Shown: piece by piece, positions 4,233 to 7,011 of the stretch | How positions within the stretch are numbered: position 1 is the stretch's first letter | Layout: each line of letters opens with the position of its first letter | NCBI GenBank assembly: GCA_003647765.1 | Contig: QMNM01000075.1 | Coordinates: forward strand, 1 to 7,011 | Reading direction: 5' to 3' | From: Candidatus Cloacimonadota bacterium | Lineage (GTDB): Bacteria > Cloacimonadota > Cloacimonadia > JGIOTU-2 > B8-G9 | DNA length: 7,011 nt | The notes under the pieces: model-generated | Told to the model about the DNA's origin: nothing | Databases searched by the model: none | Seen by the model: only the letters and a program-made list of their open reading frames with translations | Made by a program: the position numbers and the translations under genes

Positions 4233-4682
4233 ATGAAAATAGCAATTGCTTCTGACCATGCTGGATATAAATTAAAAGAAGAAATCAAAAAATACCTCAG
4301 ATATAAATATGTAGTTAAGGACTTTGGTACAAATGGAGAAGACGCAGTAGATTATCCTGAGTTTGGTTTTCCTGCGGCTGAATGTGTTGCTAATGGAATA
4401 TGTGATAGAGGAATTGTTATTTGTGGTACAGGTATTGGAATGAGTATTGTGGCTAATAAAGTTAAGGGGATTCGTGCAGCACTTTGCTATTGCGGTGAAA
4501 TTGCAGAATTATCGCGCAGACATAATAATGCAAATGTATTAGTATTAGCTGGAAAATATCTTGACCCTAAAAGTGCAAAAGAAATTATTGATATTTGGCT
4601 AACAGCAAATTTTGATAAAGGAAGACACCAAAGACGAATAGATAAAATCTGCAAATATGAAATATCACACTTCTTAACTTGA
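4233..4682 (+). CDS. rpiB: ribose-5-phosphate isomerase B (RpiB/LacAB family)
   Basis: This 149-residue cytoplasmic enzyme interconverts ribose 5-phosphate and ribulose 5-phosphate in the non-oxidative pentose phosphate pathway. Signature elements are ASDHAGYKLKE (6-16), DYPEFG (40-45) and ICGTGIGMSI (63-72). Cys64 is the catalytic base and Thr66 takes part in ring opening. RRHNNANVL (95-103) carries His97, and GRHQRRIDKI near the C-terminus binds phosphate. Having Cys64 rather than an Asp-type base points to ordinary RpiB rather than an actinobacterial form. The start is fixed because family similarity begins at the first residue, yet no good SD precedes it. It begins 43 nt after ptb and is probably translated from the same message. 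The stop is TGA (4680-4682) at the expected family length, showing that TGA normally terminates in this organism. Confidence 0.93.
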   Translation: MKIAIASDHAGYKLKEEIKKYLRYKYVVKDFGTNGEDAVDYPEFGFPAAECVANGICDRGIVICGTGIGMSIVANKVKGIRAALCYCGEIAELSRRHNNANVLVLAGKYLDPKSAKEIIDIWLTANFDKGRHQRRIDKICKYEISHFLT

Positions 4683-6293: not shown

Positions 6294-6335
6294 ATTCTGT
6301 CTCCTGACTCCTGTCTTCTGTCTTCTGTCTTCTGT
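6294..6335. repeat. six tandem heptamers (consensus CTYCTGT)
   Basis: The units are ATTCTGT, CTCCTGA, CTCCTGT and then three identical CTTCTGT, beginning 24 nt after the tldD stop. One strand is almost all pyrimidine. Short heptanucleotide arrays of this type (STRR sequences) are known between genes of filamentous cyanobacteria and occur in other genomes. Nothing in the array suggests a CRISPR, since the units are contiguous with no spacers. Confidence 0.85.
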
Positions 6336-6427
6336 TAATATGATCACACACTCAAAAATTTGACATTGGAGATATAATTCTTTCTTTTTGATTACTAACA
6401 ATAAAGGATTTAGAAAGGTGTTTAATA

Positions 6428-6610
6428 ATGAAACTTAAAAGATTTATCTTGCTAATGCTGATTTTATGTATTATTTCACCATTATTGGCTACTTATCAGG
6501 TAGGTGATTTAGTTGATAACTTTACATTAAACGATGATCAGGGCAATCCTGTATCTTTATATGATTTTACTGATGCTGTAATTGTCCTTGATTTTTGGTC
6601 TGTTGGTTGA
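6428..6610 (+). CDS. secreted redoxin/TlpA-like thioredoxin-fold protein, interrupted by TGA at the first redox Cys
   Basis: A 60-residue frame begins with a classical signal peptide: MKLKRF, a hydrophobic stretch 6-20, and likely cleavage after Ala21 in PLLA-TY. The mature part is the N-terminal half of an AhpC/TlpA-type thioredoxin fold: YQVGDLVDNFTLNDDQGNPV (23-42), then SLYDF and the strand VIVLDFWSVG (51-60). In this family FW-x-x-x is followed by C-x-x-C. Here codon 61 is TGA and the frame continues PNCTAVFKTLHSLL, so TGA stands exactly where the first redox Cys belongs, with Cys64 as the second. Reading through gives only 78 residues before another TGA at 6662-6664, so even then the domain lacks its C-terminal half. 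It could be a nonsense-mutated or recombined pseudogene, or a remnant of a selenoprotein. SD AAAGGTG lies at 6414-6420, seven bases before ATG. An exported thiol reductase or cytochrome-maturation-like role is a family-level inference. Confidence 0.6.
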   Translation: MKLKRFILLMLILCIISPLLATYQVGDLVDNFTLNDDQGNPVSLYDFTDAVIVLDFWSVG

Positions 6611-6664
6611 CCAAATTGTACCGCGGTTTTCAAAACTCTGCACTCATTGCTGAAATCCCACTGA
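6608..6664 (+). other. in-frame continuation of the redoxin after TGA (UxxC or broken CxxC)
   Basis: From TGA 6608-6610 the same frame reads PNCTAVFKTLHSLLKSH and then meets TGA 6662-6664. These 17 residues still look like the helix after a thioredoxin CxxC, so the frame was coding until recently or still is. A foldable inverted repeat, GGTTTTCA (6625-6632) with TGAAATCC (6651-6658), one mismatch, starts 14 nt after the first TGA, within the range of bacterial SECIS elements. However, its apical loop (CTCAT, inside GCA/TGC) lacks the G expected there. Beyond 6664 no family-like sequence continues in any frame. Confidence 0.45.
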
Positions 6665-6696
6665 CCAAATGATTGGCAAGCCATATATAACTGGAA

Positions 6697-6924
6697 TTGA
6701 TTTATGGTCTGTTTAATAAGATTAGTTTCTTACATTTGGAACTGAATGAAAAAAAATGCACAAACTGTGAATTATGTAATAGAGCATGTCCAATGGAATT
6801 AGATATTGCTAAAGAATATAACTCTCCTGATTGTATTCGCTGTTTTCAATGTACAGTATCCTATTGTCATAAAGATCTTATTAAACCTAAATTCACTTGG
6901 AACAGAGAGCATACAGAATCATAA
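6697..6924 (+). CDS. 2x[4Fe-4S] ferredoxin domain, C-terminal fragment of a NapH/YccM-like polyferredoxin (probable pseudogene remnant)
   Basis: The 76-codon frame reads IYGLFNKISFLHLEL, then two iron-sulfur motifs: Cys21-x2-Cys24-x2-Cys27-x3-Cys31-Pro (KCTNCELCNRACP) and Cys46-x2-Cys49-x2-Cys52-x4-Cys57 (CIRCFQCTVSYCH). In membrane polyferredoxins of the NapH/YccM kind, a transmembrane part ending in 'CPLGA' leads directly into a similar 'IYGLFNKIS' stretch and then the ferredoxin motifs. The similarity starts abruptly at the first codon here; a TAA lies nine bases upstream at 6688-6690 and there is no SD. The upstream membrane portion is therefore missing. The second motif has one extra residue and His in place of the usual Pro. 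If translated at all (possible TTG at 6697), it would be a small soluble ferredoxin. It more likely is the surviving 3' end of a deleted gene, lying between two related exported proteins. Confidence 0.6.
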   Translation: MIYGLFNKISFLHLELNEKKCTNCELCNRACPMELDIAKEYNSPDCIRCFQCTVSYCHKDLIKPKFTWNREHTES

Positions 6925-6957
6925 GAGTTTACTGAATATAAAATGGAGGGAAATAAA

Positions 6958-7011
6958 TTGAAGAGAGTATTTCTTTTAATGTTATTTATCAGTTGCATAA
7001 TACCAAATCTA
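6958..7011 (+). CDS. N-terminus of an exported protein, probable paralogue of the 6428 redoxin (3' truncated by window end)
   Basis: A TTG start at 6958 is preceded by GGAGGG (6945-6950) at seven bases, a strong site that outweighs the weak start codon. The 18 residues visible, MKRVFLLMLFISCIIPNL, form a signal peptide: basic N-terminus and hydrophobic core. They resemble the signal peptide of the gene at 6428 (RFILLMLILCIISPLL), suggesting a tandem paralogue, possibly an intact redoxin. The Cys is not in a clear lipobox. The function cannot be decided within the window. Confidence 0.6.
   Translation, partial: MKRVFLLMLFISCIIPNL

Follow-up and report, generated by a model that had tools for sequence, protein, structure and literature searches.

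A TGA at the first redox cysteine of a broken thioredoxin-fold gene in a Cloacimonadota genome: probable relic of a UxxC selenoprotein gene

Introduction

When an in-frame TGA falls exactly on the first redox cysteine of a thioredoxin-like protein, does it stand for selenocysteine (Sec) or has the gene simply been interrupted by a stop? The question is raised by a short gene close to the end of contig C101 in the draft genome of a Candidatus Cloacimonadota bacterium (1.97 Mb in 360 contigs, 88.8% complete). We have analyzed this contig in its entirety, 7,011 nucleotides, and refer to it as the window. Bacterial selenoproteins of the thioredoxin-like UxxC type are well known (review table in PMC13188914, the main text of which does not mention Cloacimonadota), and the use of Sec in this phylum is known through an unusual tRNA-Sec (PMC5330540). 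TGA also serves as a normal stop in the window, where rpiB terminates with TGA at 4680-4682.

Results

The thioredoxin stub and its two TGAs

The frame found at 6428-6661 reads MKLKRFILLMLILCIISPLLATYQVGDLVDNFTLNDDQGNPVSLYDFTDAVIVLDFWSVG-TGA-PNCTAVFKTLHSLLKSH-TGA and, with the TGA masked, matches Pfam AhpC-TSA with an E value of 2.7e-6 (Table 1). Homologues of the product encoded ahead of the first TGA were detected in 42 of 59 related genomes; a search of genome contigs for close relatives of the window protein gave none. A sequence-only reading of this DNA had noticed that TGA replaces the first Cys of CxxC, that a second TGA follows 18 codons later and that the C-terminal half of the fold is absent. 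The first of these points is confirmed by the translation and by the alignment with relatives (DFWSVG-TGA-PNC), and the other two hold as well, with no downstream frame, in any phase, carrying the remainder of the fold.

Both TGAs are contained in a 9-base repeat, TGACCAAAT, present at 6608-6616 and again, 54 bases on and in frame with the first copy, at 6662-6670. A tandem duplication was considered as its origin and rejected, since by eye the flanks beyond the 9 bases do not match. Other repeats are seen elsewhere in the window. Directly after the first gene (569-633) there is a perfect 13-base inverted repeat, ACCCAGTGAAATA / TATTTCACTGGGT, whose arms are separated by 39 bases, and at 6297-6336, between tldD and the thioredoxin stub, imperfect repeats form a CT-rich run (CTGTCTCCTGACTCCTGTCTTCTGTCTTCTGTCTTCTG). 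The Rfam scan of the entire window gave no match.

Table 1. Features of the thioredoxin stub and the adjoining NapH-like tail, in window coordinates.
Feature	Position	Strand	Basis
Shine-Dalgarno-like AGAAAGGTG	6412..6420	+	Upstream of start codon; read directly from the sequence
Unbroken frame of 60 codons, encoding a signal peptide plus the N-terminal half of a thioredoxin/AhpC-TSA fold	6428..6607	+	Translation, Pfam AhpC-TSA, homologues
TGA in place of the first redox Cys of CxxC, where relatives have the Sec codon	6608..6610	+	Translation, alignment with relatives
TGT, retained second Cys of the motif	6617..6619	+	Translation, alignment
Where relatives have the SECIS core CGGCGGCGCCG; window reads CGGTTTTCAAA, core lost	6624..6634	+	Comparison with relatives, covariance model
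Second in-frame TGA, closing the frame 18 codons on	6662..6664	+	Translation
Likely deletion junction of two truncated genes	6662..6696	+	Limits of thioredoxin and NapH-like similarity
C-terminal 4Fe-4S tail of NapH-like ferredoxin gene without membrane part (pseudogene)	6697..6924	+	NCBIfam NapH, homology, frameshift in C232

A TGA-coded UxxC family in Cloacimonadota

A profile built on the thioredoxin domain of the relatives was searched against 124 genomes of the phylum and retrieved 38 strong family members. Exactly one in-frame TGA interrupts 37 of them and only one has none; in every member that was read out, the TGA occupies the redox position. These are secreted proteins with a UxxC thioredoxin domain followed by PKD, beta-helix and T9SS-tail regions, in open frames mostly of about 640-680 aa. 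The NCBIfam selenoprotein models gave no match to the family, and in the literature that we searched, a limited library, no description of it was found.

In several genomes the family gene is found beside tRNA-Sec, selA and selB. The order at locus L078 (JAUWMT010000008.1, 5995-11401) is selenoprotein (5995-7923), tRNA-Sec (7955-8049), selA (8077-9462) and then selB. In seven genomes of the sister family of organisms (G003, G004, G007, G009, G011, G014 and G017), one contig carries the gene side by side with tRNA-Sec and selA. Downstream of the TGA, most family members share a SECIS core, CGGCGGCGCCG, that starts 16 bases from the start of the TGA and is common to all 11 aligned sequences. The strict motif TGA-N6-TGY-N4-CGGCGGCGCCG appears in 28 genomes and in none when the reversed control is used. 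The region of the core folds as a short hairpin, with pairs that hardly vary and thus lend little covariation support. Taken together, the conservation of the TGA, the adjacency to tRNA-Sec, selA and selB and the strict SECIS motif indicate that the TGAs of the relatives are very probably real Sec codons. The alignment of homologues, suggested earlier as a check, thus places TGA at the same codon in relatives from the phylum that resemble genuine Sec genes. A relative with a TGA in the same place and the CGGCGGCGCCG core was also detected in a contig filed as Bacteroidales (L090, JAFGVU010000128.1, minus strand, 1012), either through horizontal transfer or because the contig is misfiled.

SECIS and Sec machinery at the window site and in its genome

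Could the TGA of the window still be read as Sec? The hairpin that had been proposed after it is not supported, as the sequence folds no better than its shuffles (z-scores of +0.68 for 6608-6650, +0.36 for 6608-6664 and +1.28 for 6600-6680). The covariance model built from the SECIS regions of the relatives gave 5.0 bits at 6608 (E 2.4), lower than four chance matches elsewhere in the window. A hairpin within 6608-6680 was therefore rejected as a SECIS on both the shuffled folds and the covariance model. Of the 11 core bases, 8 differ from the relatives, which leaves at most the first bases of the element as a possible trace, and the motif scan found no copy of the strict motif in the genome of the window. 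The SECIS search called for after the TGA was thus negative by folding, motif scan and covariance model.

The Sec machinery was searched for in the same genome, a check that the sequence-only reading had proposed, and no component scored above its cut-off in the 88.8% complete assembly. SelA exceeded the cut-off in 11 of the 12 genomes tested and SelD in 9 of the 12; the genome of the window gave no match to the SelA profile and only weak relatives of SelD (63 bits versus a cut-off of 125). Its SelB match stayed below the cut-off (194.7 versus 242 bits) and corresponds to a 402-codon frame, similar to the EF-Tu-length matches of other genomes. The best tRNA-Sec match, at C274:1108-1197, reached 39.5 bits versus 47 and was discarded, being called tRNA-Ser by ARAGORN.

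A working selenoprotein, with UGA 6608 read as Sec and the machinery encoded by sequence missing from the assembly, is accordingly hard to believe. In its favor, the genome is incomplete, and tRNA-Sec, selA and selB form a single locus in the relatives, so one gap would be enough to conceal them; we estimate the chance of this at about 11% for the present completeness. However, selD, a separate locus, is missing too, and the estimate for selD being hidden as well falls to about 1%, taking the two loci as independent. There is no SECIS, and even with readthrough the frame would close 18 codons on without the rest of the fold. The contig that overlaps the end of the window (C232) does not help either, as it continues into a coiled-coil protein and a pyruvate phosphate dikinase rather than into Sec genes. 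Equally far-fetched is that another UGA-decoding tRNA still inserts an amino acid here, which would give a short UxxC/CxxC peptide; nothing points to it.

The window protein compared to the Sec family and to Cys thioredoxins

The window protein scored 46.6 bits on the Sec-family profile, over a partial domain only; the highest-scoring complete thioredoxin that is not a family member reached 33.9 bits, a difference of 12.7 bits. In a tree of 33 thioredoxin domains it was joined to the Sec group with support 99/96, on a long branch situated between the Sec and Cys groups and inside neither. From the TGA onward, 17 of 19 bases are identical to the Sec gene of G001, and the match includes codons that are rare in the other genes of the window: ACC, absent among 76 Thr codons, and GCG, used for 8 of 125 Ala.

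With the UxxC selenoproteins of the phylum (e.g., L078) the window protein shares a signal peptide, a thioredoxin start of the (T/A)YQVGD type, the TGA at the first redox position and the second Cys. The selenoproteins differ in their long frames, strict SECIS, PKD and beta-helix regions and sorting tail, the last three absent from the window, where a NapH-like tail follows, in one extra residue in the motif loop (FWGG-x-x-U, FW plus four, versus FWSVGU, FW plus three, in the window) and, in several genomes, in the adjacency of tRNA-Sec, selA and selB. The TlpA/ResA-like Cys thioredoxins of the phylum (G000:C262, L049) are similar to it in the fold, in DFW plus three residues and in the second Cys, but they have WCxxC with both cysteines, a full-length frame and a lower score on the Sec-family profile.

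These resemblances to the Cys proteins give some weight to an alternative without any selenium, in which an ordinary TlpA/ResA-like gene, broken by deletion or nearly so, suffered a change from Cys to stop at its first redox position. The loop length of the Cys type, the presence of GCPNC followed by LHxL in Cys proteins of the phylum, the intermediate position in the tree and the lack of SECIS and Sec genes would all agree with such a history. It must be kept as a candidate, since there is no close homologue and the window has neither the longer loop of the Sec family nor its SECIS core. Nevertheless, it demands a coincidence. A stop could arise at 22 other codons of the frame, through 32 single-base changes, and one random nonsense change would strike the codon of the first redox Cys about once in 33 times (ignoring mutation bias), and this in the protein closest to a family that is coded with TGA almost without exception. 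It also leaves unexplained the match of 17 in 19 bases with its rare codons. We consider this alternative rather unlikely.

The NapH-like neighbor and the deletion junction

A point missed by the sequence-only reading is that the stub is abutted by another truncated gene. From 6697 onward, about 75 residues align at 59% identity with a portion of a 288-aa protein from a relative in the same class (G028). The search of the own genome with the full 288-aa protein recovered this tail, the C232 variant of it, a distinct paralogue that is intact, on C274, and one insignificant match; no piece fitting the missing front was present elsewhere in the genome. The tail gave no match in viral contigs. Similarity to thioredoxins stops by about 6661, and the NapH-like similarity, clear from about 6697, reaches upstream to 6643 only by crossing two stops, so that two truncated genes probably meet at the junction listed in Table 1.

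The end of the window (6713-7011) overlaps contig C232 of the same genome (L063, G000) with 96.7% identity, the final 83 bases being identical, and probably reflects sequences of two strains merged in the assembly. Past the overlap, C232 codes for a 170-aa coiled-coil protein and then has a 909-codon frame, which we take from reading its sequence to be pyruvate phosphate dikinase, and no Sec genes. On C232 the NapH frame is shifted by the loss of one base, and from our reading of the two contigs, most of their remaining mismatches in this tail alter the amino acid.

Such a contig end, with two strains joined, makes one think of an artefact of the mixed-strain draft assembly, either at the junction or at the TGA, with an intact gene in the real genome. 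We find this improbable. The NapH tail is found independently on C232, where it is frameshifted, the genome has no other piece that fits the NapH front and no other member of the family, and a mistake falling exactly on the Sec codon is not to be expected.

Discussion

Our analysis favors reading this feature as what is left of the 5' part of a UxxC selenoprotein gene, truncated by deletion after the lineage lost the Sec trait. We regard this as likely, because the homologues in the phylum are coded with TGA and the protein of the window lies closer to the Sec family than to thioredoxins of the Cys type. With much greater confidence we hold the gene to be dead, whether its ancestor had Sec or Cys, given the missing SECIS core, the second stop, the NapH tail within about 35 bases and the incomplete fold. 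What is found at this locus is a truncated, frame-broken relative of an intact family, with a frameshift in the overlapping C232; from a working selenoprotein it keeps the in-frame UGA at the Sec/Cys codon and lacks the SECIS, the machinery and a frame completing the fold. Thus, the earlier suggestion of a selenoprotein gene that lost its 3' end stands, as a past event, on the homologues with TGA, the profile and the tree, while the absence of machinery and SECIS speaks against a working selenoprotein.

The history of this relic may have been as follows. In the ancestor, SelB and tRNA-Sec, with a hairpin immediately after the codon, would have allowed UGA 6608 to be decoded as selenocysteine. 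The lineage would then have lost its selenocysteine genes and the SECIS decayed, and a deletion, possibly a single one, would have taken out both the C-terminal part of the thioredoxin gene and the front of the adjacent gene for a NapH-like ferredoxin, so that two stubs became fused; the order of these losses is our suggestion. Translation, if any, would now terminate at 6608 after 60 residues.

There is precedent for Sec-related genes that outlive the trait. The gene selA persists in Helicobacter pylori and H. acinonychis after the loss of Sec, and in H. pylori it has been argued to be functional and recruited (PMC4607533); genomes with an orphan selD have been documented as leftovers of the trait (PMC5029168). 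As in the present case, relatives of these organisms still use Sec. However, selA and selD are machinery genes, whereas the window holds the broken gene of a probable Sec protein. The known bacterial UxxC thioredoxin-like selenoproteins (PMC13188914) have the Sec site, as here, at the first position of the motif, but they are working genes provided with SECIS and machinery, which the window is not. A selenoprotein gene that persists in a bacterium in broken form would be a modest addition to the known leftovers of Sec loss.

For annotation, the case advises caution, as a TGA at a redox Cys position without SECIS and machinery does not make a selenoprotein. More widely, the comparison has brought out a secreted UxxC thioredoxin-fold group, extended across the phylum Cloacimonadota and with an unusually strict SECIS. 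If the relic is truly that of a Sec gene, it would document directly, at the sequence level, how one bacterial lineage came to lose Sec use, an event usually deduced from absence alone.
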